Shown in pieces: positions 1 to 28,739 of a DNA stretch of 64,000 nt. Location of the stretch: assembly GCA_028532985.1 (NCBI GenBank), contig JANCIK010000004.1, positions 3,162,001-3,226,000 on the forward strand. Reading direction: 5' to 3'. Position 1 is the stretch's first letter. Each line of letters starts with the position of its first letter. The stretch is from Stropharia rugosoannulata. Lineage: Eukaryota; Basidiomycota; Agaricomycetes; Agaricales; Strophariaceae. Under the pieces are notes generated by a model that worked only from the letters and a program-made list of their open reading frames with translations, was not told the DNA's origin and did no database searches. Position numbers and translations under genes: made by a program.

Positions 1-370
1 TTTCCTCTACAGTCTGCTCAGTCCCTCGTGCGCACACTGGTAAAGTCCTTATGTTCATGCAAGCGCTTCCTCTGCTGACGTTTTCCTCCAGGATCGCATT
101 ACACTGCCTTTGCGCTTTATCGATTTCAATTGCCAATTCCTGTCTTTAGTCATGACAATCGTGTTTTACGAAGGCCGCGCTCAGCGCAGATTCAGCGATG
201 ATCATTTCGATGCGCGCATGCTCAGCAACGCCGCTCTTCACATTCTCGATCGGTACAGCCATCTTGGCATGCCTTTTCACAATCTCCCACCCTCGGAACC
301 AACAGGGACCACCATTCTAGACGTAGATCCCGACGCTGCCCTTGTAGTAGATGATATTAGCTACGATTGA
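1..370 (+). CDS. Accessory gene 2 of Ty3 element A1, 3' part (5' end outside window)
   Basis: The first exon runs from beyond the left edge to base 39. A GT-AG intron spans 40-91 and the last exon spans 92-370, ending in TGA. The product is close to the complete homologue at 9538-10009; both share blocks such as MTIVFYE and DRYSHLGMPFH. It lies on the strand opposite the gag-pro-pol of its host element and is the second gene of a four-gene cassette. No domain is recognised. The reading frame looks intact where visible. At 107-115 this copy encodes Pro-Leu-Arg as CCT TTG CGC, while the B copy uses CCG CTG AGA, one of many places where a short motif differs between families without changing the protein. 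Function is unknown. Confidence 0.6.
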
Positions 371-439
371 GCCCGTGCGCGGCTCTGATGGATTGTTTAG
401 TGCTATATATGATCCTTCAAATGAATGTCTTTTATCATT

Positions 440-961
440 ATGCCCTCCTTCGATACCGAAAGTAATCTCCTTCAACGCGCAAGCTGCTCTACCCAAGCGG
501 GCGCTAGCTGATATTCCGCTTGATGACCATGAGTGCGTCTGCTGCATCTGCATAGGCGCCCTTCATTTTATTCTTGAGGCTGCAACTGAACCGCTGCTTC
601 CCATGACCATCTGCCTAGACATGATGCGTCACGTTCAAGACCATGCAGTGCGCGCATGTCCCCCTTCTCCAGCCTTTTCGTGCGCGGCTCTGACATCCTT
701 GTAGCGGGCTCTGGCACTGACCGAAGCTACCTGTCACTCGCCTCGCATCTCGCACTTGTGCGCTCAGCTTCACTATAGCGAGCTCGTCCTGCGCTTGTGT
801 GGTACTACTGATGCTGAGCGCTACAGCACCCTCCCTCACTCTGAACACTTCCGACAACTCCACTATGCCGCCCAGGTCTTTTACCAGGAGGAATTCTTTC
901 CTGTGGGTCTTTCTCCTCGTGCGCTGTGCTGACCCTGACCATCACTTCTTAGGATGTTTAA
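440..961 (+). pseudogene. Accessory gene 3 of element A1, frameshifted copy
   Basis: Homologous to the intact gene at 10073-10616. The start ATG at 440 gives MPSFDTESNLL, matching MPSLSAESNLL of the B copy. A deletion of roughly 35 bp then shifts the frame, so translation stops near 513. Downstream homology continues in another frame (ALHFILEAATEPLLPM) to a donor at 647/648. Exon 2 spans 768-902 and the last mini-exon, 953-961, ends in TAA. Donor and acceptor positions match the B copy. The donor GTGCGCGC at 648 is itself a copy of the family-A dispersed motif. Function is unknown. Confidence 0.55.
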
Positions 962-1454
962 TTCCCGGACTGACATTTTGCTGTCTTTCCATTGATAACT
1001 ATCTATAGTCATAGCTAGCATCTATTTCTTGGTACATGTGTCATGACCCTGTATTTGAAATAAGACTGTCGGGTAACATTGTTATGCATTTTCGGCTTCA
1101 ATCTCAAAGCGGACATCAATTTGCCAAACAGGGAAAGACCTGCATCTCTTTTGATGTGCGCACCCTTTTGTTGCGATGCGCGCACGATCCTCCCACCTCT
1201 TGTCGCTATATGGGCTCTTGTATTCAGGTCCCCTCCATCCCACTCAATCTCCGTGAATGTTACGTCAGACAGGTGTAGCCCTGTGCTATGACCCATCTGG
1301 ACCTTTTGTTGAGTCCCTCTTTTCTTAACTCCTTGGGCCTGCTGCTCAGTCACCAGCTGCGCGCAGCGCTGATCATCCCAGTGAATGCTATATAAGCGCT
1401 CGCTGTCTCTGTATGAGCGCATCGCATCTTATTCCTACTTTCTCAACCACCACT
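962..1454 (+). promoter_or_regulatory. Intergenic region and likely promoter of accessory gene 4 (A1)
   Basis: No credible gene is seen. A TATATAA box at 1389-1395 lies about 60 bp upstream of the ATG at 1455, in the same relative place as TATATATAT at 11025-11033 before the B homologue. The segment carries several TGCGC motifs, for example near 1160 and 1188. Confidence 0.45.
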
Positions 1455-2769
1455 ATGGCTACTACTCATGCTCTTCTTTTCAACTTCACCAATGTCAAGC
1501 ATCAGCTCTCGCTGATCCAGGACATTCGTGGGTTGGCCTCTGCCACTCCTGCGAATTACACCGGCAGCCTGGAGCTGCTTGCTGTTGATTTGGTGCGCGC
1601 ATCGCGCGGTTCCCTTGTTGTATGTTACTGACTTCGTCTGGCACGATTGCAGAACCGCTGGCGCGATGTGCACGGCGGTATCACTCATGTTATAAACAAC
1701 AATGAGGCTATCGAGATACTCAATGAGACTCGAGCCATATATACGTCGCTCGAGGCTGACCACCACATTCGCTCCTTCTCCCCTGCCGCCAATGCATTTA
1801 TCAACTTGCATGAACAAGTCCTCAAGGCCAAGGCTGCCGCTTCTCGTCAGCGCACCCATACCCCTACTGGACCTGTGTGCTCATCTTTCCTTTCCTAACC
1901 CTTTCTACACTTAATCCCTTTTGGTGCGCGCAGCACAACGTTCGTGTTCTTACGCGTTCCGCAACTGCGGACCTTGAGACCGCCTCCGCGCCTGGAGGTA
2001 CTACATCTCCTGACTCTGACGATGACAAGGTGTGGCTAACCTTCGCTTCTTTACCAGACATCACTAACATGCAACTTTACATGCTCCTCAAAAAGATGGC
2101 CCTCGACGATAAAGTTGAAGCCGCGACTGAGGGAGGTCCTCCCAGCAGGCAGCATACACCCGAGCCGAGTCCTAACAAGAAGCGTGCCGCGCCACCTGAT
2201 ACTCCTAAGCAGGTGTGTGTTGACTCGTCTCCGCTGCGCGCACTTAGATTCTTATAGAAATACCAGCGCGAGTGCGGAGACACGCCTGGTTACCGCTCTC
2301 GTCCCCTTGGTCGAGGCATGACTTATCGTCAGACCGAGCTTCGTCGCTCCTTTCGTGACGCCGCCGCAGGTGAAGCCTCTCCTAAGAAAGCCAGGCTGGG
2401 CTCAGAGGGCGTTCCTACATTCCCCGACTCTCCTTTTATTATGCAAGGTGCGTGCACCGCACCACTCTCTTACTAATCTTTTCTAACCCTTCTTCCTCAG
2501 GCACTTCTCTCGTTTTGGACAATGACAAGGTCAATGCTTGTCTTGATGCCGCTGCTAACCTCCTTAAGGAGCCCCTTAACACGGGTAACCCTTCCGAGTT
2601 GGTGACGCGCCGTCTCATTGGTGATTTACAAGCAGAGATCACAAATGATCTCCACAAGGTTGATTTCATCCTCAAGCGCTGCGCGCTCCTCGTCGAGCAG
2701 CTTGTCATCTTGCAGCGCAGCCTCGACGTTACTGGCGTTACTGCCACCGAGGACAAACTGGCCCAGTAG
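1455..2769 (+). CDS. Accessory gene 4 of element A1 (five exons)
   Basis: Exons inferred by comparison with the B copy are 1455-1592, 1653-1874, 1934-2212, 2267-2447 and 2501-2769, giving about 362 residues. The N-terminal part (FTNVKHQL, IQDIRGLAS) and C-terminal part (NDKVNACLDAA, LVTRRLIGDLQAEI) are strongly conserved with the gene at 11069-12384. The middle is Ser/Pro/acidic with Lys-Arg clusters (NKKR, PKKAR), as in a nuclear protein. No known domain is recognised. In this copy the codon after the DSDDDKV stretch is TGG, so the frame stays open where the B copy has TGA. The donors after exons 1 and 4 and the acceptor before exon 3 coincide with TGCGC-type motifs. It ends 126 bp from the convergent pol gene. 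Confidence 0.6.
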
Positions 2770-2895
2770 ATAGCCTGGCTCAATGTGCGCTGCGCGCCTT
2801 AAAGGGGCGTCTGTAGCTAGCTCTCTTTGTATTCCCCATCTTCTTTACCCAATATATTATATTGTGGTCGCTTTCTTCCTACAGTGCTCGTGCAT

Positions 2896-4168
2896 CTAAG
2901 TGTCTTCTTCGCTCCAGTCATCATCTTCTTCTTCATCCTCTTCTACTGTAAGCACACTGCTACCCGAGGGTACACCGGGCTCATCAAAGATATAATCTTT
3001 GGGAATAGCTGGCTCATAGTCCGGCGCCTCTAACATTTTAGCTATGTTCTCCTTGGTCTGATCAATTATATCATCCAAACCGTCCGGTAAGCGCAGCTGC
3101 CTCCGTGCAAAGTAAGGAATGAGGCAGAACGCCGCCACCTTATCCTTCAACACAGAGCCATCCATCTCTGCCACTAAGTACGCTCCACCATCTTTTCGTG
3201 CGATAATGATGTAAGGCCCGTTCCATCGTGCAAGCATCTTACGGTTCAGACTGGATTCTATGCCCGAGTTCCTCATTAGCACTACATCTCCTGGCTTAAA
3301 CACATAGTCACGGATTTTAGCCGAGTGCTTCTTTTCAAATGCCCTGATTGCATCTCTTTTCGTCTTTGATACTCGTGCGCACATCTCTTCTACTGTGTCA
3401 CGATGTTTGGCTAGTGCGCGCGCGCAATACCCCACTAACTCCTCCGTAGTCAGTACCCGATCTGGTAGCTTCACCAGCCAAGTCACCTCTGCTATGTCGA
3501 ATGGTAGTATGGGGTGCGCGCCCGTCACCATGAAGAATGGGGAACACCCGAATCCTCGTCGCACAGTGATATGATCCGCCCACAACACATGGTAAAAGAA
3601 TCTACTCCAACGCTTATGCGCGCCTTCTGTCCCTCCACACGCTTTCCACAACATCTGTCTTATGTCCCAATGGGGGCGCTCTATCTTGCCATTTGCCTGC
3701 GAGTTGTACGCTGAGATGGTAATCCCTGTAATCCCATACTTCTTTTCTAAATACTTAAGCGCTGCGCGGAACGGTCCACCATGATCTGTGATGATTTCTT
3801 GTAGACAGCCCCAACGGCAGATAATGTCCTCGAATATCCACTGCGCTATTGCACGGGCATTCTCTTTCTTTAATGGCCGCCCTTCCGCCCATGAGCTGAG
3901 CACACATCTTCCGTGCACTATGTAATTATACCCATTGGAGGCCGGGGACATGTGCATAGTGTCCGCGTGTAGTTGCTGGAAGATAGACGGCGTGTGTGTC
4001 TCGGTGCACGGAATCTGGATGATCGTCTTCTGCCTCAACTGACAGACATGACATGTTTTCACATACCAGTAGACATCCCTTTCCAACTCAGGCCACCAGA
4101 AGCGCTCCGCTAGCAATTTGCGCGTAGCGTACGCTCCTCGGTGCCCCAGGCTGTCATGCGCTGAGCGC
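2896..4168 (-). pseudogene. pol: Integrase part of A1 pol, separated from its 5' portion
   Basis: Reads from about 4168 down to the stop at 2896. It begins inside the integrase zinc-binding region (H-H then CHVCQLRQK). Catalytic Asp occurs in QLHADTMHM and ITDHGGPF, and the Glu in NGKIERPHWD, then a GPY-type C-terminal module (RWNGPYIII) and an acidic tail. No chromodomain is seen. ITDHGGPF replaces ITDNGGPF of the B copy. The rest of the gene (protease-proximal region, RT, RNase H) is at 22691-25311. The gap between them was produced by insertion of 4169-22690 plus loss of about 55 bp encoding the residues before AHDSLGH. The frame within this part is open. Confidence 0.8.
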
Positions 4169-5028
4169 TGAGAGGTCTACTGCGTAGCTAGACTCGAAAT
4201 CGCGAAACACAACACACACACACACACAGCGGAGCGAGATCCTATCCCTTAGATCGAGCGAACGCCCTCAACTAAATGGTAGTATAATCTATGCTCTGCT
4301 CTGGTTCCCGTTCTGGGCGTGCAATGCGCGCACCTCGTGTCCTCTAGTCTTTGTAATAGCAAGTAGTGCCTGCAAGTTCGTTTGTAAGGAGGGGTTTAAT
4401 TCTAGTAAATCTCGGATAGAGCCCAGTTGCTAGTGGCGTGCGCAAAGCAAAATGATAAATGAAATAAGTTGTTTTTAGCGAACAGCTTCGCTACGCGCAC
4501 TTCCGGGTCCGGTGACCTCGTACAATGCGCGGACTCTCCAAAGTCCAATAATCCAAGACTCTCCAAAGTCTTTCACCCGGCGGTGCAGTCTCACAGTCTA
4601 AACACTACAGTGCGAGTTTCCGTACACGGTTGTACTGACTCCTCACTGAGCTCTCCAATTGACCCGGTGGCCAGAAGCTATCCAAAACTCCTATGATTCA
4701 CAAATACTTCACAGTTAAAACCCTAACAAAAGCTAAACACAGCCCGCTGACGGCCTGGGGCAGAACCCAGCACACAGATCTAGTGGGTAGACAATTGCTT
4801 AAATTACTATAGACAAAGATACAGGTTTATATGCGATGCGCGCTTGTGTACTAATGATACGGTAAAGTAAATACTAGCAACGCGCGGCCAAAGGTCCGCG
4901 CATCGCATCCGGGCTTCCCTTTAGTGTTCCAGCCCCTGGGCATCCGCTGTGCGCATGTCGTTCGCTCCCTCGGGCTTTTGCGCGTATTTTTGATGCGCGC
5001 CTATTTTTGATGCGCGCCGCCACGGTCG
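4169..5028 (-). mobile_element. Truncated LTR of family A
   Basis: Starts with TGAGAGGTCTAC and follows the LTR at 41896-43109 closely, including the CA-repeat, the TTAGATCGAGCGAA block and the GATGCGCGC pair near 4994-5019. It then stops at GCCACGGTC, where sequence of the family-B leader begins. About 350 bp of the LTR are missing. The left flank is GCGC, inside the A1 pol sequence. Confidence 0.8.
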
Positions 5029-5231: not shown

Positions 5232-6660
5232 TGAGAGGTCTGCCGCGGGGCTAGACTCGAATCACAAGAAACACAACACACACAACCCCAGCGGAGCGAG
5301 ATCCTATCCCTTAGATCGAGCGACGCTCTTCAGCTAAACGGATTATAGATGTCTACGCTTCTCCTGGTACCTCCCCGCTGAGCGGAGTGTGATGTGTTAA
5401 GGGTCTCGTAAGTTCAGTCCAGAATGCCCGCTGTACAGTGCCTGCAAGTTCGTTTTTAAGGAGGGGTTTAATTCTAGAAGTCTCAGATTAATGTCTGGGC
5501 GACCTCCGCTGAGCGCAGGGTATCGATAGTAATGTATAGTTTTGATGGTGGCTCCATGGGCTTATTCCGCTGAGTGGGTTTGAGGTCCGGTGACCGATGC
5601 AGATGCTCACACAAGCTGGTATTCCCAATTGTGCCCCGCTCTGCTGACTATCCAAAGTTGTTCCGCTGGGACTGTCCAAAGTCCTGTTCCGCTGAGGCTA
5701 TCCAGAACCTCGTTCACCCGGTGGTGCAGTCTCAATTCACAAAACACTACAGCGCGAGTTTTCGTACACGGTTGTACTGACTCCCCGCTGAGCTCTCCAA
5801 ATGACCCGGTGGCCAGAAGCTATCCAAAACTTCTATGATTCACAATACACTTCACAGTAAAGACCCTAACAAAAGCTAAACACAGCCCGCTGACGGTCTG
5901 GGACAGAGCCCAACACACAGATCTAGTGGGTAGACAATTGCTTGATTTCCGTAGTTACAATTACAAGTTTATATAGACGCGCATTGTGTACTAATTTAGG
6001 TGGAGAGTAAATACTAGCAACGCCGGACCAAAGGTCCGCTGAGCGCATGTGCCTCCGCTGGGCGCTTTGATGGCTACTCCGCTGAGCGCGACCTGATCCT
6101 GTTGTGTTACCAGCCTCCGCCGAGAGACACTGTTAAACTCCGCTGGGCGGTTCCGTCTTGGTCATCGAGGCCTGGTTACTGCTGCCCAAAGTTCCCCAGC
6201 GGAGTCCGTGCTGTGTGCATTGTTTATTCCCTCGGGCATCACACGCTCCAGCGCGCGCGCCACGGTCACCTGACGAGTGGACTTAGGCAAATTTCGCCTT
6301 CGTGATGTGTTCCGCTGAGCCCCTTTGAGACACCGTCTACACACAGTCCTGCTCGTCGCCTTTGATATTTTCCGCTCAGCTGTACTCCTGCCTTCCGCTG
6401 GGACAACAGTAACCGTTATGTACTCCGCTGACAACTATTCCGGGTACTCCAACTGTGTACTTATGGCTCGTACAGTCCGCTGAACCCCACACAAGCGTCC
6501 GCTGAGCACATGCGTGATAGATTCGTGATAGATTCGTGATACACGCGCTGAGCGCTGAGACGGCTGACCAGGCTAGTCACCGCTCCGCTGTACCCTTGCA
6601 CTTCAGCCCAAACCGCCCGCTGTGGCCACTTACAGCCTTGGTATAAACGCAAGCCTGTCA
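5232..6660 (-). repeat. 3' LTR of element B (LTR-B)
   Basis: In its own sense it begins TGACAGG and ends CCTCTCA. By eye it holds about 22 copies of CCGCTG/CAGCGG in 1.43 kb, whereas fewer than one would be expected by chance. It is shared with the deleted B fragment on its left. Short reading frames conserved between copies (for example around 5590-5838) are by-products of LTR identity and show no coding character. Confidence 0.9.
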
Positions 6661-6673
6661 TCTCCCCTTCACT
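6661..6673 (-). other. Polypurine tract of element B
   Basis: On the minus strand AGTGAAGGGGAGA lies directly before the 3' LTR, the expected place for the plus-strand primer of an LTR retrotransposon. Confidence 0.7.
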
Positions 6674-7090
6674 AAAAATTTTGACTGTCCTCAGTCAAGG
6701 TCCGCCTGTATTTCTAGACTTAGTATTGTCCCCGCGTCTACTTTTAGCGCCTCATTTTCTATTTTCAGCTTTCCCCAGCGCCTATTTGCCTATCTTTAGC
6801 TCTTGGTCGTCTCCGATGCCCATTTTCATTGTTATCCGTTTCTCTCTCCGTTTAAGGATATCCTTTCTCTTTTTCAGCTTTATGCCGCTGCTTATAAACC
6901 CCGCTTTCTATGTAGGTCGCCTGAAAGTTTATGTGACGCTGCCACCCCGTATTTTATCTTCCAGAAAATTCTTCCGCTGGGCGAGCCTTTGTCTTATAAA
7001 CGTTGGACACTGCTCCTTAGCTCTTTTCATTCTTCCTTTCCCTCCCCTCCTGCAGATCCCCTGCTCACTCTCCTTTCTATTCTTCCAACA
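6674..7090 (+). promoter_or_regulatory. Promoter region of accessory gene 1 (element B)
   Basis: Contains a TATAAA near 6892 and, at 6681-6698, an 18-bp hairpin with arms TTGACTG/CAGTCAA. The arrangement of a C/T-rich tract, an A/T box and this hairpin recurs at 9476-9508 before accessory gene 2, so the two promoters seem duplicated. The rest is pyrimidine rich, as is common before basidiomycete start codons. Confidence 0.4.
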
Positions 7091-9100
7091 ATGGCCTTTC
7101 GCAATTTCGACCGCCGCCAACGCGAGAAAGAGCGCACCGAGGCCCTTTTAGACGCTCAGGACCGCTTCCGCCGCCTCCGCCCCGCGCTCGCGGTTTATCA
7201 AGAATTCGAAACGTTGGCGGGGGCCGACAACCTGCCCGACGACGGAATGGCGCGATTACACGAACTTCGGGTGGTCATCGACAATGCTGTCGAGGACCAC
7301 CTGAGCCTTCACTGCTCTGACGGCCTCTACCACAACGGGGTCCGCGAGCTTTGCATCCTCCTCTCAGCGGTGGCCAACATGCTCATCGCGGACGACCCCT
7401 CTCTGGCGCCAACACTGCACGCGCGCCGTTGGTTCACGACCGGTCACCAGCCCTTGACGTCTTACATTCATTTTTTTGCGACTGCCTTCCCCACTCAATG
7501 GGACGGCTCTTCCGCCCCAGGTCCTCGCCCTTGCTTAGACTCCGCTCCGCGCCTCTCTCCTGCTCCCGCTCCCACCCAGACCGCTCCCGCGGCTGAAGAC
7601 ATCATCATGGTCTCTGACGACGACGCTCCGCGGCCCCCTTCGCCTTCGCCCGCGGTTCGTAAGGACAAGCGCAAGCGTCTTCCTACGCCCCCTGTCGTCA
7701 TCGTCCCTCCTGCGCCGTTACCAAAGCCTACTAAATGCCAGCGCCCCGCTGCGCTCGCTGCCAGTGCCGCTATCGCTGGTAAGTTCCCTTTATTATTTTA
7801 TTTTATTTCTCTGTCCTGATCCTTCCCAGCCCAGGCCGATCTAGAGTCCCCCGCAGCATTTTCCTTCGTCCGCCCCTCTGGAGGTCCCCCCCTGGCCCTG
7901 ACCGACAGCGGGATTGAAGAGATCACTAATACCCGCCCTGATAGCAACAAGATCGTGTATAAGTCTACTTATCCTATTCTCGACGTCTTGCCCCCCGTGT
8001 TCTCAGCTAAGCTTGCTCTGGCTGGCGCTCCGCTGCCCGATGCAATCGACATGAGTATGCTCCCCTCCGAGTCCCGACTTGAAGGCGCTATTATCGTGCG
8101 TGTCTCCTTCGTCCGCTGGGCTCCCTTTTTCTTTTCTCTTACTGACTTATTTCCATCTCATATAGAAGGGGATGGTGTGCAATCACTGTGCTCGTCCTTT
8201 CAATGCTCGAATCAATGAAGGCCTCCACCAGTGCATCTGCCGTGGGTGGGCACGCAATTGCTGTACTTGCAGTACCCAGCAAAAGGGGAAATGCCTCTTT
8301 TGTTGCGAGCCCGCGGAGGTTGACAAGACTATTGAGGACTCCTCCTTGTGGCACCGTACTTCATTGACCAGTAAGTCTATTTCCCATCCCCAATTATCCT
8401 TTCGACTTATATTCTCCTTTTCTTTTTAGGCCTTCTGTCTGGCTTCGCTCGCCTCAGCGCTTACACGGAGCAGGCCCGCGTGGCTGAAGAGCAGCGCCGC
8501 TCTGCTGAGCGCATGTTCTTCGGTCAGCTGATCGAACTCTCCCAGCTGGCGCGCGCCATGGCGCTCACCCTTCCCACTGGAATTATTATTGGCCCGCGCT
8601 TCCGCGATTGCGAAACATTCGACGCTCTCCGTTGTCTTGACCTCGGCCGCCTCCACGAGGCCTACTCCTCGCTTTGCGCCCCCGTCGTTGTGGAAGACCC
8701 CCTCATCGTTGCCCCCGCCGCCGCTTTCTACGATCCGAAGTATCCGCGCTTTGATCCTACCACCTTCATCCCTGCCCCCCAGCCTGACCAGGCTATAACT
8801 CTAGAGGCCTTCAATGCGGCCGAATCTCAAGCTTTCGAGGACGCGGCCCTCCGCCAAGCGGAAGAGGCCGACGCTATCATCGCAGCGGAGAGGCTCAAAC
8901 GCTCGTGCGATCGCTCATCCAAGAGAGGGACTCCCGCAGAAGGCTCCCTCCCCGCCACTCCGTCCGCCAGTACTTCGCGCCTCGAACCCTTAACCACCGC
9001 TTCCAAGGGCAAGGCCCCCGCTGTGGCTCGCACTTTCCTGACCCCTTCGCGCGTCCCTAGCGAGGTAGACGCCGCCGAGGTTCCCGCGGAGGGGGATTGA
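7091..9100 (+). CDS. Accessory gene 1 of element B, Cys-rich protein
   Basis: Exons are 7091-7778, 7830-8095, 8166-8370 and 8430-9100; all junctions are GT-AG and in phase, giving 609 residues. The N-terminal third is helical and charged. Next comes a Pro/Ser-rich region with basic KDKRKR (nuclear-localisation-like). Exon 3 encodes a Cys-rich module at about residues 320-370: CNHC, then CIC, CCTC and CLFCC, at least ten Cys plus His, consistent with zinc binding. The C-terminal part has a coiled-coil-like AEEQRRSAERM stretch and a Ser/Pro/Lys-rich tail. I recognise no named family. It is the first gene of the antisense cassette, nearest the 3' LTR. The only counterpart in the window is a much less similar Cys-cluster protein in the KDZ segment (50635-54158). 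I infer a nuclear DNA-binding role; sequence alone does not prove it. Confidence 0.65.
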
Positions 9101-9537
9101 GGTCAGGCGCACGCTTCCGCTGGTTGTCAGGCCTTGGGGCCTTTTATTTCTTTTTCTACACTTCTTGTTCCTCTGCTCCTTATTACTTTATCTGGCATAT
9201 GTAAGGTAATTAGATATTGTTATAATTAAATATGCCTGTTTGTTCTTGTCTTATTTGTGTGAGTCTGAAACTTCCTAAGTCCTTAGCTATAGACTCCGCC
9301 CAGCTGAGCAACCTGCAGACCTCTGAGAAGGTGTCCTAATTGTTGGCCGGGTTCTCCTACAGCTGACTCTCTTCTACTAAGTGTTTGCTGGTATACTTTC
9401 TCTTCTTCTCAGGTCCGCTCAGCGGACTTCTTTTCCCCACACGTGCTCCGCGGCCAAATTTTAGCGGGCTCTCTCCCCCTCACTATAAAATCAACTGTCC
9501 CCAGTTGACAGACTCTTTACTCTTCTTTTTCTCCGTC
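9101..9537 (+). promoter_or_regulatory. Spacer and promoter of accessory gene 2 (element B)
   Basis: TATAAAA at 9484-9490 is followed directly by a hairpin TCAACTG-TCCC-CAGTTGA at 9491-9508, then the ATG at 9538. The tract CTCTCCCCCTCACT before it resembles the complement of the polypurine tract at 6661. The remainder is the AT-rich 3' region of gene 1, with no coding sign. Confidence 0.5.
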
Positions 9538-10009
9538 ATGCAACGCTACCAACGCACGAATGTCGCCCGCCAGTTCATCTCCATCCTCAAACAGCTGGCT
9601 GTCCATGCTGAGCTCAACAAAGACTCCGCTGAAACTACGATTCACCTGCCTTTGCAGTCAGCGCAGGCCGTTGTCCGCGTGCTGGTAAGGCTCAGTTTCG
9701 TAGAGTCCCCTCCGCTGACCATCTCCACAGGACCGCATCGCCCTTCCGCTGAGATTCATCGACTTTAATCGCCAGTTCCTGGCGTTCCTCATGACCATCG
9801 TGTTTTACGAGGCCCGCGCTCAGCGGAAGTTCAGCGATGATCATTTCGATCCTCGCTTACTCAGTAATGCCGCTCTACGCATTCTTGATCGATACAGTCA
9901 TCTGGGCATGCCCTTCCACCCGCTGCTTTCTTCCGAACGAAATGAGGCCGAAATTCGCGAAGTCGATCCTGATGCCGCGCTCGTCATAGACGACGTCAGC
10001 TCTGATTAG
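9538..10009 (+). CDS. Accessory gene 2 of element B
   Basis: Two exons, 9538-9684 and 9731-10009, encode about 141 residues (MQRYQRTNVARQF...). The start follows a TATA box by about 50 bp. The family-A homologue at 1-370 is about 75% identical by eye over the second exon. It is a small, mostly helical protein with an acidic C-terminus (VDPDAALVIDDVSSD). No domain is recognised. It is flanked closely by gene 3 (63 bp downstream), in the same orientation. Confidence 0.6.
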
Positions 10010-10072
10010 GATGTCCCGCTGCGCTGGCACTCTGCGTATATAATTCTATCCCCTGTATTTCTATACGCAAAA

Positions 10073-10616
10073 ATGCCTTCTTTGTCCGCTGAGAGTAACC
10101 TCTTGTTAGTTGCCCATTCAGATCCTCGCATCCTTCGTCTCGACGCTCTGCCCAGGCGTCTGCTGAGTGCTTTCCTTCCCATCGACCTAGCTCGAGTCTG
10201 CCGAATATATGTAACTGCCCTTCATTATATCCTGGACTCCGCTGTGGAGGAACAGCTACCTATGAGCGTCTGCCTTCCGCTGCTCAACCGAGTTCAAGAT
10301 CACGCTGTAAGCCCCTTTTCGCTGTCCATGTACTCCCACTGAGTAGTCCGCGCAGCGCGGCTTAGAGCTGACCGAGTCCACCTGTCATTCACCGCTTCTT
10401 TCTCATCTCTGCGCTCAGCTGTATTACACCGAACTTGTGCTTCGCCTGTGTGGTACCAACGACGCTGAGCGCTACGGCATTCTTAATCACACCGAACACT
10501 TTCAACGCCTCCATTATGCCGCCCAGCATTTCTACCAGGAGGACTTCTTCCCCGTCTGTCCCCTTTTCTCTTCCTTCTCCGCTGTGCTGAGACCAGGATT
10601 ATGTCAGGATGTTTGA
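10073..10616 (+). CDS. Accessory gene 3 of element B
   Basis: Exons are 10073-10306, 10419-10551 and a terminal mini-exon 10608-10616 (Asp-Val-stop), about 124 residues. The first-exon/second-exon junction reads VQDHA-LYYTEL. The mini-exon is supported by the family-A copy, which has the same GATGTTT after an AG acceptor. Blocks RLDALPRRLL, ALHYILDSA and GTNDAERYG are conserved. No domain is recognised. The upstream TATATAA near 10036 fits a separate promoter. Confidence 0.55.
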
Positions 10617-12384: not shown

Positions 12385-12504
12385 CGGCCTTCTTAATTAC
12401 TCCGCTGAGCGCCTCAAAGTGGTCCTTAGCTAGTTCCTTTTGTACCTTTCTCCTTTAGTTTACCCAATATATTCTATTGTGGTCTCCTTTTCTACTTTGT
12501 GCCT

Positions 12505-19141: not shown

Positions 19142-21225
19142 TCGAAACCCTGGCTCAGCGCTGCATCCCGCTCCGCTTTCATGGTCGCGATCAGCTGCCG
19201 CTGTTCCTCTATCACCTCCTCTGGTGTCTTGACCGCTGAGCGCTCTTTTAAGAACGCCTTCCGACTGTCCAGCTCCTGCTGCAGCGTTCGAATTTGCTCT
19301 TCATAAGTCTCATCGAGAGAGCTGGCTGGTTGGTAGACCTGGGCGTACACCATGCTCGGCGGAGTCCCCATGTACGCTGGGTGTACCGGCGCCATGTAGG
19401 TCTGCTGCACTGGCGGCCCATTCTTCTTATGCCACTCATCTACACGTTCTTTGATAGCGCGCGAAGGGTCCCAAGGTAATGACGATCCATCTGGCAGCTG
19501 GAGCCTTCCAGCTTCCGTAATGATTATCTTCCCAGCGGACAGATCCTGTTGCCTCACAATACACTCCGCTACAATGTGTCCCGTCTGTTTACAATAGAAG
19601 CACCTCGGTTCAGGTCGCTGTTGGTATTGAAACGGACGCGGCGGCGCTCCGCTGAAACCTGGTCCTCCCATTGGCATCATAGGTACCGCTGGCTGGACTG
19701 GCGCAGCGACAGGCGCTGCCCGTGACGACATTACATTGCGCAGAATATCTTCCAACTCCTTCTTATTGGTCTCCTTTGACTTCGACACCGTCTTTTCTAC
19801 CAGCGACAACGTATCTTTAAACGACGCTACAAAACCCTTCAAGTCCTCAATCTCCCCGCGCAGCGTATGCACCTCCGCTGACTCGGTCTTGATGGCAGGC
19901 ACAGGCATGAGCCCGTCCGCTGAGTCTCGAGTCAGGCTGAGCGAAGTGCTAGGATTCTTGGTGCGCGCCATCTGCTCCGCCATTTCCGCCACCTGCTTCA
20001 GCGGATACATGTCCTCAGTCCGCGCTTCCACCTGAATCCCCGCTGGCGCCGTAAAGGGTATATTGCGTTCCTTTAGGTACTTGTCAAACGACGTCCTCGT
20101 AGTGTAGTCAATATCCAGCTTGTTAAACAACCTCTCCCTGAACCCCGCTGTGAGACTGTTGGTGAAGTAGGTCACCAGCGTATGATTAGCCAGCAAGGTA
20201 GGTGCCTTGGTCAACTTCGCTGCCTCCGCTAAGAATGCCCGCTTGAAGTCCAACAGCACCTGGAGGTCTTCCTCCGAGATGCGCTGGTTCTCCTTGCACA
20301 GCTTCTTTAGGCGCGCGATGGACCCCATCTGAATACTGATCACCTCAGGATATTCATTGAGGATCATCTTCTTCAGCTCAGCGTAACTCTTGGTGTCATA
20401 GCCTGGTAAATTCTTCCACTCCTCCGCTGTCTGCATGGGTACATATTTGATTACATAGCCTCTCCTCTCATCATCCTCCGTCACCTCAGCGCGCTTGAAC
20501 CAGTCCTCTAAGTCCTCGAAGTAGCGTGGGAGTTCATCACGCTCAGCGGAGGGGTCGAAGCTTGGTGCACCGCGCGCTCCGCGCACAGGCATAGACGTTT
20601 CCTTAGGCATGGTGATAATTTCAGGGGGCGGTTCGTGTTCACTTGTGGAAAGGTCTGACAAGTCTCCTTCAAATATATCCCTGGCCACGCGCTCGGCCTC
20701 ACTCTCACTATTATCTGTCGTCCGCTGAGCGGATCTCTTAGCAGTCTCGAATACTTCCGAAAACGGAGGAGGTGTGTCTTGAGTAGCTTGGCTATCTGAT
20801 GAGCCAAATGGTGCAACTTCAAGCGTAATGTCTCCGTCCGCTGAGCGGTCGTCTGTTTCAATTCCAGAAGGCGGTCCCCAGAATCCGCTGGGCCCGTCCT
20901 CCCGCTCTGAGTCACTCTCTGTAAGCGCTCCTGGTACGCGCTGAGCAAGATCCTGCGTTTCTATCTGTAGCCACGCCTCTTCCTTTGCTTTCCTCTTCGC
21001 TTTTCTATCTCGAGTAGGTGTAATCACCAATGGTTCCACAAGCTCAGCGTCTTTCTTGCTCCTAGTCGATCGCCAGCTCGGAGGCAATATACCAAATGAT
21101 GGTCTAGCCTCCGCTGGTTCTGCTAGCGACGACGGTGCAGGAAATTTGCCTCGCTTGTTACTCGTCCCCGTTGTATTTGAAATTTTTGAAATGTTTTGTA
21201 ATAGGCGCTAAGCCGTGGTCCCCGA
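19138..21225 (-). CDS. gag: Gag of element B
   Basis: Coding similarity to A1 gag extends upstream of 21087 to about 21220, yet the first in-frame ATG is far downstream, at the codons for MPKETSMPVRG. The protein has an acidic Ser-rich N-terminal third, a central capsid-like helical region (DWFKRAEVTEDDER, EEWKNLPGYD), and a CCHC zinc knuckle CFYCKQTGHIVAEC near the C-terminus, then a coiled-coil-like tail. The stop TGA at 19138-19140 follows GGGTTTC GAT. The start is unresolved: non-AUG initiation or a spliced leader exon from the LTR would each explain the conserved upstream frame. Confidence 0.75.
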
Positions 21226-21272
21226 AACACTATATGAGATTTCTGAACCTACCCCTCGCGGTGGGCTCCAGA
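21226..21272 (-). other. Leader and primer-binding site of element B
   Basis: The minus strand reads TC then TGGAGCCCACCGCGAGGG directly after the LTR (21253-21270). A TGG start two bases from the LTR is the normal place for a tRNA 3'-end primer. The tRNA species was not identified. The same site occurs at 5212-5229, 41876-41893 and 57712-57729. Confidence 0.8.
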
Positions 21273-22690
21273 TGAGAGGTCTGCCGCGGGGCTAGACTCG
21301 AATCACAAGAAACACAACACACACAACCCCAGCGGAGCGAGATCCTATCCCTTAGATCGAGCGACGCTCTTCAGCTAAACGGATTATAGATGTCTACGCT
21401 TCTCCTGGTACCTCCCCGCTGAGCGGAGTGTGATGTGTTAAGGGTCTCGTAAGTTCAGTCCAGAATGCCCGCTGTACAGTGCCTGCAAGTTCGTTTTTAA
21501 GGAGGGGTTTAATTCTAGAAGTCTCAGATTAATGTCTGGGCGACCTCCGCTGAGCGCAGGGTATCGATAGTAATGTATAGTTTTGATGGTGGCTCCGCGG
21601 GGCTTATTCCGCTGAGTGGGTTTGAGGTCCGGTGACCGATGCAGATGCTCACACAAGCTGGTATTCCCAATTGTGCCCCGCTCTGCTGACTATCCAAAGT
21701 TGTTCCGCTGGGACTGTCCAAAGTCCTGTTCCGCTGAGGCTATCCAGAACCTCGTTCACCCGGTGGTGCAGTCTCAATTCACAAAACACTACAGCGCGAG
21801 TTTTCGTACACGGTTGTACTGACTCCCCGCTGAGCTCTCCAAATGACCCGGTGGCCAGAAGCTATCCAAAACTTCTATGATTCACAATACACTTCACAGT
21901 AAAGACCCTGACAAAGCTAAACACAGCCCGCTGACGGTCTGGGACAGAGCCCAACACACAGATCTAGTGGGTAGACAATTGCTTGATTTCCGTAGTTACA
22001 ATTACAAGTTTATATAGACGCGCATTGTGTACTAATTTAGGTGGAGAGTAAATACTAGCAACGCCGGACCAAAGGTCCGCTGAGCGCATGTGCCTCCGCT
22101 GGGCGCTTTGATGGCTACTCCGCTGAGCGCGACCTGATCCTGTTGTGTTACCAGCCTCCGCCGAGAGACACTGTTAAACTCCGCTGGGCGGTTCCGTCTT
22201 GGTCATCGAGGCCTGGTTACTGCTGCCCAAAGTTCCCCAGCGGAGTCCGTGCTGTGTGCATTGTTTATTCCCTCGGGCATCACACGCTCCAGCGCGCGCG
22301 CCACGGTCACCTGACGAGTGGACTTAGGCAAATTTCGCCTTCGTGATGTGTTCCGCTGAGCCCCTTTGAGACACCGTCTACACACAGTCCTGCTCGTCGC
22401 CTTTGATATTTTCCGCTCAGCTGTACTCCTGCCTTCCGCTGGGACAACAGTAACCGTTATGTACTCCGCTGACAACTATTCCGGGTACTCCAACTGTGTA
22501 CTTATGGCTCGTACAGTCCGCTGAACCCCACACAAGCGTCCGCTGAGCACATGCGTGATAGATTCGTGATACACGCGCTGAGCGCTGAGACGGCTGACCA
22601 GGCTAGTCACCGCTCCGCTGTACCCTTGCACTTCAGCCCAAACCGCCCGCTGTGGCCACTTACAGCCTTGGTATAAACGCAAGCCTGTCA
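21273..22690 (-). repeat. 5' LTR of element B
   Basis: 1418 bp, nearly identical to 5232-6660. The right flank at 22691 is GCGT, inside the A1 pol reading frame. Dense CCGCTGAG motifs as in the other copies. Confidence 0.9.
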
Positions 22691-25311
22691 GCGTCATCTA
22701 TGGATCTCCGGTACATCCGTCCGTCCTTGTCTAGGAAGAAGTTACGAGTGTTCCTCGTAAAGTTCTGATATTCTCACTCCGTCATGCCTTTAGGCCTAGT
22801 GGTTGGATTCTGCAACCAGTAGCGTATCATCGGCAATTTCTCATCCATATCTTTTCCTGCAGACGTCCTGTTGCGCTCATCGTACTCCTCATCCTCCAGA
22901 TCCTCTATTCTGGAGTCGGGTATCGTATGCGCTAGTATGAATTTTTCTAAATACTCGCGCTGCGCGAGCGGCACACTCTCTTTCTGTATGAAGTCCTGCA
23001 CGGCCTGCTTTTCCGCTTCTGTCTCTTTCCGTGCGTGCTCGAGCTCCTGCTGGAAACAGCCTATAGAGCGCGCTTCTGGTAACTTGCGCGCAGTGGGACC
23101 TTCAAACAACTCATTGAGGAGTCCGGTGTATAGATACCCACCACGATCATCGATCTGTTCTTTGAATTCTTCAAAGTCCAGGGGATCTGGGTCGTCTTCA
23201 TAGACTTTCTCATATTCGAGCGGTCCCACCTCCTGATCATCGTCTTCTTCAGAGTGCGCGTACGCCTCATCTCCCGGTTGCCCTTCCCTGCGCGATAAAC
23301 CATCTGCACCGAAAGTTTTTCCCGCAACATGTTTCAACTGGAAGTGATACATAAGTATTTTATCTATCCAGCGATTAATAGTTGCATTAGGGCCCATGCC
23401 CGGATTATCCAACATGCCCTTCAAGTACTTGGCATCTGTTTCCACCACCAGCTTGCACGCACCGATGAGCCAATAATAACAGGCTTGTAGCGCACGTAAG
23501 AGTCCATACAACTCCCATTTGGGCTGTGAGAAGCGCTGCTCACATTCCGTTAACAGTATTGATCCGAAGCGCGCATATACCCTCTTCTTCGAATCTTGTG
23601 GGTCCTGCTGGTAAATGTAGAACCCTACTGCTCGCCATGATGTGTCTACAGCCAAAGTAATCGGCCCTGGCAATGTGTAATCCAGTGGTTTCACGCAATG
23701 TGCGTTGCACGCACCGTCTTTCAACGAGTCCATGCTAGCTTGCTGAGCGGGCCCCCACTCAAAGGGCTCTTTCCCACGCAATAGCCGCTGTATGTGCTCT
23801 GCGCGCTTCGCATAGTCTGAGATGTAGATACGGAGCAGACCCATTGTACCCATGAACGCGCGCACATCACTGATGTTCTTGCATGGCCCCCAATTGAGGA
23901 TTGCATGCACTTTATCAGGTGCTGGCTTTCGCCCTTCGTATGTGCACAAGTGCCCCACCACTACTATCTCAGCCGCGCATAGTATGGACTTCTTTCCACT
24001 AAATGTTCCTCCCGAGTACTTCATGCGCTGCACGATTCTGTTGACATTCAACATGTGTTCCCATACAAATCTCCTTATTCCCTTATTCTCTGGTATCGTC
24101 TCATATCCTCCTCCTTCTAACTCGTGGCGCGTTTTAGGTCCCCTAATAGGTACATCGTCTATATAGGGCTCTGTAACTTCAGGTATTTCATCGCGTAATA
24201 TATATGCGACATCCTCATGAAAGATGGGCACGGAGTTCGTCCATCCCATAGGGAGGGTCACTAAGCGCAGCGCACCGAACGGCGTCTGGAATGTAGTCAG
24301 GTCTCTAGAGGATTCAGCTAACAGCCGCTCATCGTACCCAACATACAAGTCCAGGATGCCGCCACATGCACGCCCCGCAAAGTGTTCCGCTAGACTCTCT
24401 GCTGCTGGAGGTAGTCCTGAATGTGCAATGGTTACTGCATTTAACGGTTCCAGACTGTGCACAATTCTGAACGAGACCCCGTCTTTCTTAGTCACTGTAA
24501 ACCAGCGCGACCGGTACGATGAGCTCGAGGGCTCATACGTGCCTGCGCGAATCTTGGTCGCGATGAATTCACATACGCGCTCATACATCCCAGGTGGTAT
24601 TGGGATGTTCTTTAATACCCAAGGCGTGTGCTCTACAGTGGGAATGTCTACTGGAGGGAAGAAGTCCGTACGGAATCTACCCTTCTCTGTGTCATCCCAC
24701 GCGAACGCCTCGTTCTGCTGCATGAAAACTTGATGCACCAACTTGCGCTCCTCGGGCCACAGGAAATCCCCTTCATGCGCCTTGTCAATTCCCTCCATGC
24801 GCTCAGTGGTGTACCGACCTGTAGGTACGAAGTCTGGCGGATGTGGTGACAATCGCGGCATGTCCTTTAGTGGGTCTCCTTTTATCTCCCTCACTATTCT
24901 AAACTTCTCTGGTAAGTCTTGATAGACGGGCCTGACTTTCTCAGCCACTGGCTTATACTTCTTTCCTGCGAGCACCGTAACGGTGGTGGCATTCTTGCCA
25001 GTCAGGCGCTTACGCATTACTCCTTGTTTCTTACTAGGGACCTGTTCCTCGTGCGATGCACGGAACTGCCCCCTAGGCTCTCCTTTGACTACTTCCTCTT
25101 TGCGCCATTTGCGCTGCTGAAAATACTTGTATATTCTTTCTTTCTCATCATCCTCCATCTTTGCCTCATGTACTGCTTGAGCCATGTATACATCCCTGAG
25201 CTCAGCGCTCCCAAACCGCTTCTTATTCTTTGGTAGCGCATACCCCGCTATCTCTATTTTCCCTGTGCGATCATCTCTGTCAAACATCAATGCGACCTCT
25301 CCTTGACGCAT
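22691..25311 (-). pseudogene. pol: RT and RNase H part of A1 pol, interrupted by element B
   Basis: Open from the ATG at 25311-25309 (overlapping the protease stop, TGATG) to the junction with LTR-B at 22690. RT motifs LVTLPMGWTNS and YIDD, RNase H DTSWRAVGFY, ETDAKYL and DGLSRR are present. The frame breaks after RMYRRSIDDA, just before the integrase zinc finger; integrase resumes at 4168. This copy is closely matched by A2 (61712-64000). It shows the TGCGC motif at places where the B pol has CCGCTGA. Confidence 0.85.
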
Positions 25312-26588
25312 CAAATCATCGAGGATTGAAAATCCTGATCTGCGTTAGGGTTTTCCGTTGTGCCAGGGTCCTGCAATTTAGGTTCGCGCTGCACAATCTT
25401 GGGACCGCACCCTCGGTTATAGGTGGGTACTACCAGCTTGCGCTGTGTGTTGGGATCAGTGAGCGTAAGCTCAACCGTTCCATCGCCGCGCGTCTTCACA
25501 TTGCTCTCCGTGAGGATCTCGAACGGCCGGCCCAAGAGTACCTCGTAAGCCGCTGCGCTGATGACATGCACTTGTAAATACACTGTCAGTCCGTTAAACA
25601 CAAACGGTACGTTGCGTGCTAAACCCTTGGTGGATTCCACCTGCTTATTCGCGCTCTGCATCCGTATAGTGAAGTCCGGGTCCCAACTAAGTCCTAAGCG
25701 CTCAGCAGTGTCCTGTGCCATTGACACAATCTGCGATCCACTGTCGAGCAACGTCTCTGCGTGTCCCTTGCCGTTGATGAGCGGAAATACCGCCTTTAGA
25801 TGGTGCGATTCGCGCGCCACAATAAGTCCCTTAGGCTTTTCGCCTGGCTGCAGAGTCGAGACGTACTGTTCGTACGGGTCTTCCATGATGATGGTCCCCG
25901 GTTGCAGTCCGCTGCGCTCATCTGAGCAAGTAAGGAAAGTGGCCACTGGTAGCTCGTCCATCTGCATAAACTCCTCTTCCTCTTCCTCCTCTGCTAACCG
26001 CGCGATAGCCTCATCTACTTCACGCTCTTCTTCATTGTAGTCTAGTTGTAATACGCGCATCGTATTCAAATCCAATGGTACCTTTCTTGGTACTATGCGC
26101 TCAACGAACTTTCTTCTGAAACCTGCAGTCGATATGCCTAACAACTGGCCCTGCGTGATCTCAATTTTCTGGTTTTCCAAGTGTTTGAGGACGGCATCAG
26201 CCTGCGCCTCATCTTCGATAGGTGCGCGCAGCTTATAGGCCGGCTTCCTCTTCTCTACTACAGGTATGGGCTCTTCCCTAACCTTAGGTTTTACTTTCTC
26301 TGGTATGCGCAGCGGAGGTACCATTACATATGGCACTGCTGCTGGTCATGCACTAGGCCCAGCCTTTGCAGGAACCTCGAACACTACTTTCTTCTTTACT
26401 GGCGCGCTGCGCGCACCTTGCTCCTCCACTACTTCTCGCAACTCATCTTCCTCATCATCACTCGCGTCCTCAACTGATGCTCTGGGTATATTTCTGATTG
26501 GTAACTTCTTATTTGTGCCCTCCGGGTTCTTGGGTTTATCAGAGCCACTATGCATAACTCTGCCCGCGTTTCCCTTCATCAGACTCAA
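25311..26588 (-). pseudogene. pro: Aspartic protease ORF of A1 with an in-frame TGA
   Basis: The -1 frame begins inside the gag end (GGGTTTC at 26591-26597) and is interrupted by TGA at 26346-26348, where A2 has CGA (Arg) in AGPSARPAAV. Beyond it the frame is open to 25311. The active-site sequence ETLLDSGSQIVSMAQD is intact. The N-terminal region is acidic (ASDDEEDEL) and includes a TGCGCGCAGCGCG tract at about 26401-26420 coding for Ala/Arg/Ser. Confidence 0.75.
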
Positions 26589-28588
26589 TCGAAACCCTGA
26601 CTGAGCGCAGCATCGCGTTCGGCTTTCATAGTCACTATTAACTGGCGCTGTTCCTCTATCACTTCCTCAGGCATCTTCGCCGATGCGCGCTCCTTCAGGA
26701 ACGCCTTCTTACTCTCCAGCTCTTGCTGAAGTGCGCGTATCTGCTCCTCATAGGTCTCGTCCAAGGAACTGGCCGGTTGGTACATCTGCGAGTATACCAT
26801 GCTAGGAGGCATACCCATGTACGAAGGATGGACGGGTGCCATATACGCTTGCTGCGCGGGCTGCCCGTTCTTCTTATGCCATTCGTCGACGCGCTCTTTG
26901 ATTGCACGCGAAGGGTCCCAAGGTATCGATGACCCGTCAGGTAGCTGTAAGCGCCCCGCTTCAGTAATGACAATCCTCCCCGCTGCCAAGTCCTGCTGCC
27001 GTACGATGCACTCAGCCACCACATGTCCCGTCTGCTTGCAGTAGAAGCAGCGAGGCTCCGGGCGTTGTTGGTATTGGAAGGGCCTAGGTGGCGCTCCACC
27101 AAAACTCGGTGCGCTCATGGGCATCATGGGGGCTACTGGTTGCACAGGCACCGACATCGGTGCGGCGCGTGCAGCCATGACATTGCGGATAATGTCCTCC
27201 AACTCTTTCTTACTCGACTCCTTTGACTTCGCCACTGTCTTCTCTACTAACGACAAGGTATCCTTGAAGGAAGCGACGAACCCTTTCAGGTCCTCAATCT
27301 CTCCGCGCAGCGAACCAACATCCGCGGCCTCAGTCTTGATGGCGGGCACCGGCATGAGTCCATCAGTGCTCTCGCGCCCTAGGCTCAGCGTAGTGCTTGG
27401 GTTCTTTGTGCGGGCCATTTGTTCCGCCATCTCGGCTACTTGTTTGAGAGGGTACATGTCCTCGGTGCGCACTTCTACCATCACCCCAGTAGGTGCAGTG
27501 AACTGTATATTGCGCTCAGTCAAGAACTTGTCGAACGATGTGCGCGTCGTGTAATCAATGTCCAGTTTATTAAACAATTGATCCCTGAACCCCGCAGTGA
27601 GACTATTGGTGAAGTAAGTCACCAGGGTATGATTCGCGAGCAGGGTAGGTGCCTTCGTGAGCTTAGCGGCCTCGGCCAAGAACGCGCGCTTGAAGTCTAG
27701 CAACACCTGGAGGTCTTCCTCCGAGATGCGCTGATTCTCCTTACAGAGCTTCTTGAGCCGTGCAATGGACCCTGTCTGAATGCTGATCACCTCCGGGTAC
27801 TTGTTGAGAATCATTTTCTTGAGCCCCGCGTACCCCTTGGTATCATAACCTGGTAAATTCTTCCACTCCTCCGCCGTCTGCATGGGTACATATTTTATTA
27901 CATATCCCCTCTTTTCATCGTCCTCCGTCACCTCCGCGCGCTTAAACCAATCCTCCAGATCCTCGATGTACCGTGGCAGCTCATCGCGCTCTGCAGCAGG
28001 ATCGAAGCTCAGCGCGCCGCGCGCACCACGTACTGGCATGGACATATCCTTAGGCATAGTTTCTGTTTCTCGAGGGGGTGAATTTCGTTCGCTTTCTGAG
28101 AGATCTGACAAGTCTTCTTCAAATATATCTCTCGCTACGTGCTCTGCTTCACTTTCGCTATTTTCCGCCGTGCGCTGCGTGGATGTCTTAGCAGTCCCAA
28201 ATACTTCCGAGAATGGAGGAGGGGTGTCTTGGGTAGCTTGGCTATCAGAAGTACCGAATGGTGCGGTTTCAAGTGTAATATCACTGTCCACTAATTGGCC
28301 TTCTGATTCAATGCCAGATGGTGGTCCCCAAAATCCACTAGTCCCTACTCTTAATTCCGAGTCGCTTTCGGTGAGCGCACCTGGGATGCGCTGCGCTAAT
28401 CCCTGGGTATCGATATGCAACTGTGCTTCCTCCCTCGCTCTTTTCTTTGCTTTTCTATCTCGTGTCGGTGTAATTACCAAAGGTGCTACCAGCTCAGCGT
28501 CTTTCTTGCTCCTCGTGGTTCTCTCGCGTGAAGGCACCGTTCCAAAGGATGGTCTGGCTTCTTCTGGCTCGGCGAGCGATGAAGGCAC
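26585..28588 (-). CDS. gag: Gag of A1
   Basis: About 667 residues if counted from a GTG near 28588; the frame is open further upstream with no ATG. It has a capsid-like central part (PRYIEDLEDWFKRAEV), a Gln/Pro-rich stretch and the CCHC knuckle CFYCKQTGHVVAEC, then a coiled-coil C-terminus. It is about 97% identical by eye to A2 gag. The stop at 26585-26587 overlaps the protease frame. Confidence 0.8.
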   Translation of the reverse strand: MPSSLAEPEEARPSFGTVPSRERTTRSKKDAELVAPLVITPTRDRKAKKRAREEAQLHIDTQGLAQRIPGALTESDSELRVGTSGFWGPPSGIESEGQLVDSDITLETAPFGTSDSQATQDTPPPFSEVFGTAKTSTQRTAENSESEAEHVARDIFEEDLSDLSESERNSPPRETETMPKDMSMPVRGARGALSFDPAAERDELPRYIEDLEDWFKRAEVTEDDEKRGYVIKYVPMQTAEEWKNLPGYDTKGYAGLKKMILNKYPEVISIQTGSIARLKKLCKENQRISEEDLQVLLDFKRAFLAEAAKLTKAPTLLANHTLVTYFTNSLTAGFRDQLFNKLDIDYTTRTSFDKFLTERNIQFTAPTGVMVEVRTEDMYPLKQVAEMAEQMARTKNPSTTLSLGRESTDGLMPVPAIKTEAADVGSLRGEIEDLKGFVASFKDTLSLVEKTVAKSKESSKKELEDIIRNVMAARAAPMSVPVQPVAPMMPMSAPSFGGAPPRPFQYQQRPEPRCFYCKQTGHVVAECIVRQQDLAAGRIVITEAGRLQLPDGSSIPWDPSRAIKERVDEWHKKNGQPAQQAYMAPVHPSYMGMPPSMVYSQMYQPASSLDETYEEQIRALQQELESKKAFLKERASAKMPEEVIEEQRQLIVTMKAERDAALSQGFD

Positions 28589-28739
28589 AGGAAATTTGCC
28601 TCGCTTATTACTCGTCCCCGTTTTATTTGAAATTTTTGTAATTTATTGTACATCAGGAAAATCACTTTTTTGCCGAGAGCTATTTAAAGACATTTTAGTA
28701 ACTTTTAGTCCATCGTTTCAAACTAGATTTAATTAAAGC

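Follow-up and report, generated by a model that had tools for sequence, protein, structure and literature searches.

Elements of the window

The stretch of DNA analysed here (the window) comprises 64,000 nucleotides of Stropharia rugosoannulata (GCA_028532985.1, JANCIK010000004.1:3,162,001-3,226,000; all coordinates given without a contig or locus refer to it) and contains Ty3 long terminal repeat (LTR) retrotransposons of two families, A and B; KDZ DNA transposons occur in the same genome, which was surveyed over 48 Mb in 20 contigs. The KDZ/CxC2 transposons and the short introns are in keeping with a fungal origin. Each Ty3 family carries its own short word in many copies, and accessory gene 1 of these elements, encoding a protein with a cluster of six cysteines (Cys), is considered below as the candidate reader of that word.

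In the window, a Ty3 A element is split by a Ty3 B element, a solo B LTR lies inside B, and a second A copy is present (Table 1). Gag-pol is on the minus strand of the A and B elements and the accessory genes, three of which were counted, on the plus strand; the left part of the A element extends leftward into locus L050, which holds gene 1. The Ty3 nature of B is seen from its LTR pair, 99.0% identical, and from the location of reverse transcriptase (RT)-RNaseH ahead of integrase, with RT_RNaseH occupying 305-410 and Integrase_H2C2 634-690 in the B pol open reading frame (ORF). About 207 bases at 5025-5231, outside the B LTR beginning at 5232, match 21065-21272 on the gag-start side, as in a tandem element arrangement. 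A tandem repeat with a unit of about 155 bases (32728-33248) adjoins the B LTR at 33246-34667.

Table 1. Features of the window, with strand and supporting matches
Feature	Position	Strand	Remarks
Family A element, left part (plus strand, accessory genes 2/3; minus strand, integrase end)	1..4168		1470-4168 = 72.9% to B 11084-13777
A integrase-end ORF, 406 aa	2896..4116	-	ORF list
A-type LTR	4169..5001		97.6% to 41896-42728; 92.6% to 56877-57709
B LTR, densest motif region	5232..6690 (right edge approximate)		5025-6660 = 99.0% to 21065-22690
B accessory gene 1, candidate reader, 609 aa	7091..9100	+	open spliced frame
B gene 1 exons (inferred)	7091-7778, 7830-8095, 8166-8370, 8430-9100	+	
Cys-cluster exon of B gene 1, C-x2-C-x14-C-x8-C-x2-C-x7-C	8166..8370	+	
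Full B palindrome 5' of gene 2	9415..9425	-	C4:3171415
B accessory genes 2 and 3	9538..12392 (limits approximate)	+	
B pol, integrase to RT part	12505..15706	-	Integrase_H2C2 5.3e-18, RT_RNaseH 3.7e-11
B palindrome CCGCTGAGCGG within pol (second example of the preliminary description)	14086..14096	+	
Solo B LTR lying within B pol	15710..17130		15710-17129 = 96.2% to 5232-6660
B gag and N-terminal pol	17131..21087	-	
Second B LTR	21273..22693		
A gag-pol, other part of B-interrupted A element	22708..28650	-	77.2% to 13837-15710, 76.5% to 17131-21200
Further B LTR, inverted	33246..34667		95-97% to other B LTRs
KDZ DNA transposon (limits = outer ORFs)	43144..53927		KDZ 2.3e-38, CxC2 4.1e-16
KDZ-borne Cys-cluster protein, C-x2-C-x6-C-x14-C-x2-C-x6-C	50808..51512	+	ORF and pattern match
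Further A copy (gag-pol), inverted	58390..64000	+	97.1% to 23021-28650

Family-specific words in A and B

The word of family B is TCCGCTGA(GCGG) and that of family A is (GA)TGCGCGCA. Within 5200-21270, TCAGCGGA/TCCGCTGA was found 51 times and CCGCTGAG 43 times, at first-order Markov expectations of 0.72 and 0.82, respectively; this segment includes two near-identical LTRs, and the count of TCCGCTGA is 42 without the solo LTR. The A copy L045 (7,001 bases) contains TGCGCGCA 20 times (0.26 expected) and ATGCGCGC 23 times (0.49 expected). Among the best 30 of 108 pol copies, the split into classes was without exception, 21 having 10-17 copies of TCCGCTGA and zero of TGCGCGCA (class B) and 9 having 2-4 copies of TGCGCGCA and zero of TCCGCTGA (class A).

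Genome-wide, CCGCTGAGCGG was found 260 times vs 17 for the reversed word, and GATGCGCGCA 815 times vs 49. Of the first 100 B palindromes listed, 73 are no more than 15 kb away from A/B elements, a zone making up 4.3% of that sequence; RT matches below 85% identity and A-type Cys matches were left out of this comparison. The density of words peaks in the LTRs, reaching 14.4 per kb for CCGCTG in B and 13.1 per kb for TGCGCG/CGCGCA in A.

The words quoted in the preliminary description do stand at the places given, and A and B carry different words, far above chance; this core observation is real and wider than first noted. The claim that the sites cover LTRs, introns, spacers and codons is borne out for LTRs, spacers and codons, while introns were counted separately in gene 1 alone, giving one CCGCTG in 180 bases.

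GATGCGCGCA also forms two arrays that look like tandem repeats, being spaced 201 bases or multiples apart at C1:4751217-4752633 and about 9,155 bases apart at C1:4673712-4701187; the latter is perhaps ribosomal DNA, which is a guess.

Selection on the words inside coding DNA

The shuffling of synonymous codons (300 shuffles), preserving both the protein and codon usage, was applied to gag and three pol ORFs of B, with the pol-b stretch 17131-17962 excluded. CCGCTG was observed 51 times in these four ORFs vs 9.4 after shuffling, and 0 of 300 shuffles reached the count in any ORF (gag, 15 vs 2.8; ORF 17864-19141, 10 vs 1.8). Eight-base words were observed 31 times vs 2.6, ORF 12505-13164 alone being not significant (p 0.13). 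In the A ORFs, TGCGC was found 57 times vs 29 (p 0.003, 0.007, 0.007 and 0.043, the last for the integrase-end ORF with 9 vs 5.0), and GCGCGC was significant in only two of four. The exons of B gene 1 showed no enrichment of CCGCTG (6 vs 4.0, p 0.20). Selection at the DNA level on synonymous sites is thus shown, strong in B and moderate in A.

These data bear on a neutral origin, in which the words would have arisen through codon usage, CpG mutation or short tandem duplication. CpG is present in all of them, and some flanks of the words are repeated in the D-type loci described below; however, synonymous shuffles keep codon usage and nevertheless miss the B counts fivefold, and in the listed alignments, A and B are separated at many B sites by gap-free substitutions, so that we consider such an origin highly improbable.

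In B gag-pol, CCGCTG is enriched on both strands (34 vs 6.8 and 17 vs 2.4), which points to double-stranded DNA as the form read and disfavours a motif acting at the RNA level. The plus strand prevails 19:2 in the B LTR and 22:3 in genes 2 and 3, the words in gag-pol and pol being less skewed (36:21).

Foamy viruses encode a transactivator, Tas, and the Cys-cluster protein could similarly activate the promoters of its own element instead of counteracting silencing. The highest density of words in the LTRs agrees with this, as does the position of Sirevirus LTR motifs upstream of a TATA box (PMC2829016); on the other hand, the sites also fill gag-pol codons far from the LTR, which a promoter factor would not need. 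Transactivation is regarded as unlikely and ranks next after a self-recognising DNA-binding protein.

Positions of the words compared between A and B

According to the preliminary description, A mostly has TGCGC or GCGCGC at the places occupied by the B motif. In motif-masked alignments, an A word overlaps 18 of the 83 B sites, about 9.6 being expected; with gene 1 and the LTR added and only well-aligned columns considered, an A word is met at 16 of 78 usable B sites (out of 114 in total) vs 9.0 expected (circular-shift p 0.01). The in-place swap as a rule was rejected because of this 16/78, and the proposal fails in its general form. For the strict six-base A word, the numbers are 8/78 and 4.3 (p 0.055).

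The A words TGCGC and GCGCG stand at B sites 30 times vs 14.7 expected (2.05-fold). Control CpG words with at least four G/C gave 1.94-fold (41 words) or 1.78-fold (58 words), these sets including fragments of the B word, whereas a set without any four bases of CCGCTG gave 1.17-fold (45 words) and words with the shared CGC/GCG core 1.29-fold (23 words). Since the cleaner controls are below the value for A words, composition does not explain all, and there may be a small true excess of A words at B sites, partly from the shared CGC core. This core is kept at 11 of 19 B sites meeting an A word and at 31 of 114 B sites overall. A change of motif at the same site therefore appears to hold, at best, for a minority of the sites.

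B six-mers are intact in A at only 2 of 81 sites vs 123/895 for control words, and the A words show no such deficit (13/73 vs 137/850). The lower retention of B words in A indicates that B sites for the most part arose, or disappeared from A, after the two families separated.

Gene 1 and its six-cysteine cluster

A search of the genome with the Cys exon gave 92 matches, including 26 at 86-100%, 5 at 71% (named B2) and 61 at 30-43%. The six-Cys pattern fits 23 of 25 exons read, one of the others having a stop (L076) and one being without the fourth Cys (L078); the alignment of Cys exons consists of the 23 found by the pattern demanding six Cys, L076 and L078, two of 20 exons fetched, being left out. 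In the A copy L045, gene 1 (L045:2415-2760) has frame breaks in the first exon, and the Cys exon and the last exon are open.

Using distance and strand, 25 of the 30 pol copies were paired with a Cys exon, and all pairs were concordant in Cys class and motif class. The paired copies comprise 17 B (four of them B2) and 8 A, and the unpaired ones 4 B and 1 A.

The Cys exon is the most diverged among the A/B parts compared, with 23 of 66 residues identical (35%), followed by exon 4 of gene 1 (47%). The corresponding values are 548/650 (84%) for gag, 504/560 (90%) for RT-RNaseH, 29/49 and 68/92 for gene-2 exons and 37/48 and 64/74 for gene-3 exons. In the C3-C6 half of the cluster, identity is 0.80 within A, 0.85 within B and 0.40 between classes; in the C1-C3 loop, it is 0.55 and 0.74 within classes and 0.27 between them.

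Inside each of the two families, too, gene 1 forms a divergence island. Two A elements have an identity of 0.59-0.72 in eight blocks from the middle of gene 1 to its end vs 0.83-0.98 elsewhere (0.90-0.97 in pol), with 0.80 and 0.67 in the 3' flank of gene 1. At four-fold sites of this pair, 15 of 24 differ in the Cys exon vs 44 of 356 in pol. For B compared with B2, identity is 97.7% in pol and 0.51-0.69 in gene 1. Such divergence at silent sites suggests an exchange of gene 1 as a cassette rather than selection on the protein alone.

It is rather improbable, in our opinion, that the motif is read by another product of the element (gene 2, gene 3, Gag or integrase), gene 1 being hypervariable for another reason. 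In favour of this reading, genes 2 and 3 are present in both families and are moderately diverged, and gene 1 varies within a motif class; however, genes 2 and 3 are less diverged than the Cys exon, and the Cys-cluster protein is the only kind common to motif-bearing KDZ and Ty3 elements, as far as checked.

Words and Cys clusters in other families

The KDZ word of the window, CGCCGA, was found 52 times vs 6.3 expected in 28651-58000 (z 6.0 vs null maximum 4.9). Another Ty3 family, C, contains CCGGTATA 15 times vs 0.43, the word being weaker in the first 6 kb of C alone (z 5.7 vs null maximum 5.4), and family D has the word TCCGSCGGA (z 14.5 vs 4.6). Cys clusters are present in C, in the window KDZ and in D; only weak, non-significant coiled-coil-like matches follow the cluster of D. 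The words of B and D include CCG...CGG, and that of A does not.

The assignment of D to the Ty3 families was rejected, as a KDZ-type transposon holding a Ty3 insertion is the source of both its Cys protein and an adjacent ORF that is split. At C7:2365629-2374246, a Ty3 copy appears to be inserted in a D-type KDZ transposon, one ORF being split.

A forecast was made for six loci (of 28 matches) chosen only for encoding a D-type Cys protein, which are relatives of the D protein at 37-41% and fall into two families with three members each. ACCGSCGGT is present in all six, with z of 15-25 vs null maxima of 4.6-5.5.

KDZ lies within 15 kb, at 3.5-7.3 kb, of 20 of 25 D-type Cys loci (random points, 4.8%), and TET/JBP lies within 15 kb of 15 of 25, at 6.6-12.7 kb with nine at 9-10.5 (random points, 1.8%). 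Both are found within 15 kb at 14 of the 25 loci, as judged by proximity; the counts took in 81/123 KDZ matches, 32/32 TET matches, 25/28 D matches and 18/19 of a further list. The 15 of 25 loci near TET/JBP favour a role against silencing, and this link, together with PF00145 matches over cut-off at four host loci, favours a methylation context. For the A/B Cys exons, 7 of 92 have TET within 15 kb, in clustered repeats; as far as seen, A and B are without a TET of their own.

No strong word was seen in the single copies of four Ty3 families that gave no Cys cluster (L046-L049), two being marginal: L048 and L049 gave no word, L046 a C run (z 6.0 vs 5.5) and L047 a marginal word (z 5.6 vs 5.1). 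In L047 (C9:122700-130700), the latter is TTAAGGAA, found 6 times vs 0.17-0.21. This lack of strong words, as well as the entirely different words of closely related families in one genome, speaks against a host factor, such as a silencing, centromere or recombination protein, that would recognise the words and shape the elements. DNA methyltransferase-like matches in the host are in its favour, and the probability of this explanation seems low to us.

A possible mechanism of self-recognition

We suppose that each family marks its own DNA with many copies of a mostly palindromic, CpG-bearing word and that an element-encoded six-cysteine protein, gene 1 in A and B, would bind these sites. Binding would probably be by a dimer, comparable to that of fungal zinc-cluster proteins at CCG/CGG half sites. 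Like VANC in VANDALs, the bound protein would shield the DNA of the family from host silencing; some KDZ families may have the Cys-cluster reader acting next to a TET/JBP oxidase. The element-encoded reader proposed in the preliminary description receives indirect support from the diverged Cys gene, the 25/25 class concordance and the 6/6 forecast motifs. With moderate confidence, gene 1 may be considered the reader of the family word, used for protecting the element from silencing; binding, dimerisation and anti-silencing are inferred here.

A more elaborate version is tentative. Ty3 and KDZ, unrelated transposons sharing one genome, would both run modular systems of self-recognition. A swappable Cys-cluster reader cassette, exchanged by recombination between copies, would set the word, to which the remainder of the element, including codons, would be adapted by substitution; the KDZ versions would aim TET at themselves, and the Ty3 versions would have no TET of their own.

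A number of data weigh against the protein encoded by gene 1 as a reader. As A and B are separate lineages, the concordance of Cys and motif class counts as about one event, a single phylogenetic contrast, and within a motif class the Cys exon varies by 29-36% with the word unchanged. The A ORFs have no significant excess of the full palindrome TGCGCGCA (2 copies across all four), and the 41:5 preference of B words for the plus strand in the LTR and genes 2/3 is unexpected for a symmetric site. No significant zinc-cluster match was found in Pfam, the nearest being Zn_clus with the KDZ protein only (E 1.2), and AlphaFold modelling of the Cys exon alone was uninformative (predicted confidence pLDDT 45), so the structure was not used. 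Homology between the Ty3 and KDZ Cys proteins is not demonstrated. TET matches are absent within 22 kb of three of the six forecast loci (L053, L054 and L058), and GACCGSCGGT is found genome-wide 263 times vs 157 for the reversed word, only 1.7 times more. In a further family, C' (L042), where the pattern search gave no Cys cluster, a weak word is present (z 6.6 vs 5.1), and two KDZ stretches beside TET (L079 and L080) have neither a Cys cluster found nor a clear word.

If the model is true, retrotransposons tell self from non-self and escape silencing via addressable DNA words, such self-recognition being already known from Arabidopsis VANDALs. A single genome with several families, each having another word and protein, would then allow a direct test of the code connecting Cys clusters with DNA words and reveal how a specificity evolves jointly with its numerous sites. 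It would also be a self-recognition system for which no report was found in this kind of retrotransposon, on a thin literature check.

Comparison with known systems

Fungal Zn2Cys6 zinc-cluster proteins have six cysteines with the spacing C-x2-C-x6-C-x5-12-C-x2-C-x6-8-C and recognise CCG/CGG half sites. The proteins considered here resemble them in the six cysteines, and the words of B and D in the CCG/CGG half sites. The KDZ and D clusters are close to this spacing with a longer middle loop, whereas A and B, with x14-16 and x8 spacings, have a longer distance from C2 to C3 and no significant Pfam match. The PF00172 profile gave no match over cut-off, no Pfam family exceeded the cut-off for exons 1, 3 and 4 of B gene 1 and exons 3 and 4 of A gene 1, and the best hit in a PDB profile search was Midline-1 (E 0.72). 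No retrotransposon-borne zinc-cluster reader was reported among the literature matches listed, the literature check being thin.

The VANDAL DNA transposons of Arabidopsis encode VANC, an anti-silencing protein acting through a short dispersed family-specific motif, with fast divergence of both protein and motif (PMC5735166, PMC10398659). The elements studied here likewise have an element-borne candidate gene, a family-specific dispersed short word and a rapid divergence of protein and word. According to these studies, VANC21 sites occupy noncoding DNA and multiply in the form of tandem repeats, whereas B sites also fill coding DNA, many by substitution. A and B are Ty3 elements and not MULE-type transposons with a VANC homologue, and Pfam scans of gene 1 exons 1, 3 and 4 of B and 3 and 4 of A gave no VANC domain (no direct comparison with VANC was made).

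Sireviruses, plant Ty1/copia elements, carry in their LTRs many palindromic family-specific boxes, nearly all CGG-CCG, which make CpG islands, with no common binding factor identified (PMC2829016). A and B are, like them, LTR retrotransposons with many family-specific palindromic boxes. However, Sirevirus boxes are situated in the LTR and before ENV, not throughout gag-pol codons, and the passages considered on these copia elements of plants mention no Cys-cluster cassette. The present elements are Ty3 or KDZ, and the A word has no CCG...CGG.

For the TET+ Kyakuja/KDZ transposons of Agaricomycetes, an escape from methylation silencing was proposed (PMC12730594). The D-type loci have the KDZ transposase and TET/JBP side by side in the same way; the main text of that study does not contain the words "zinc" or "cysteine". 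The nearest precedents are the Sirevirus boxes in cis, VANC in trans and the TET+ Kyakuja transposons for the D-type loci.

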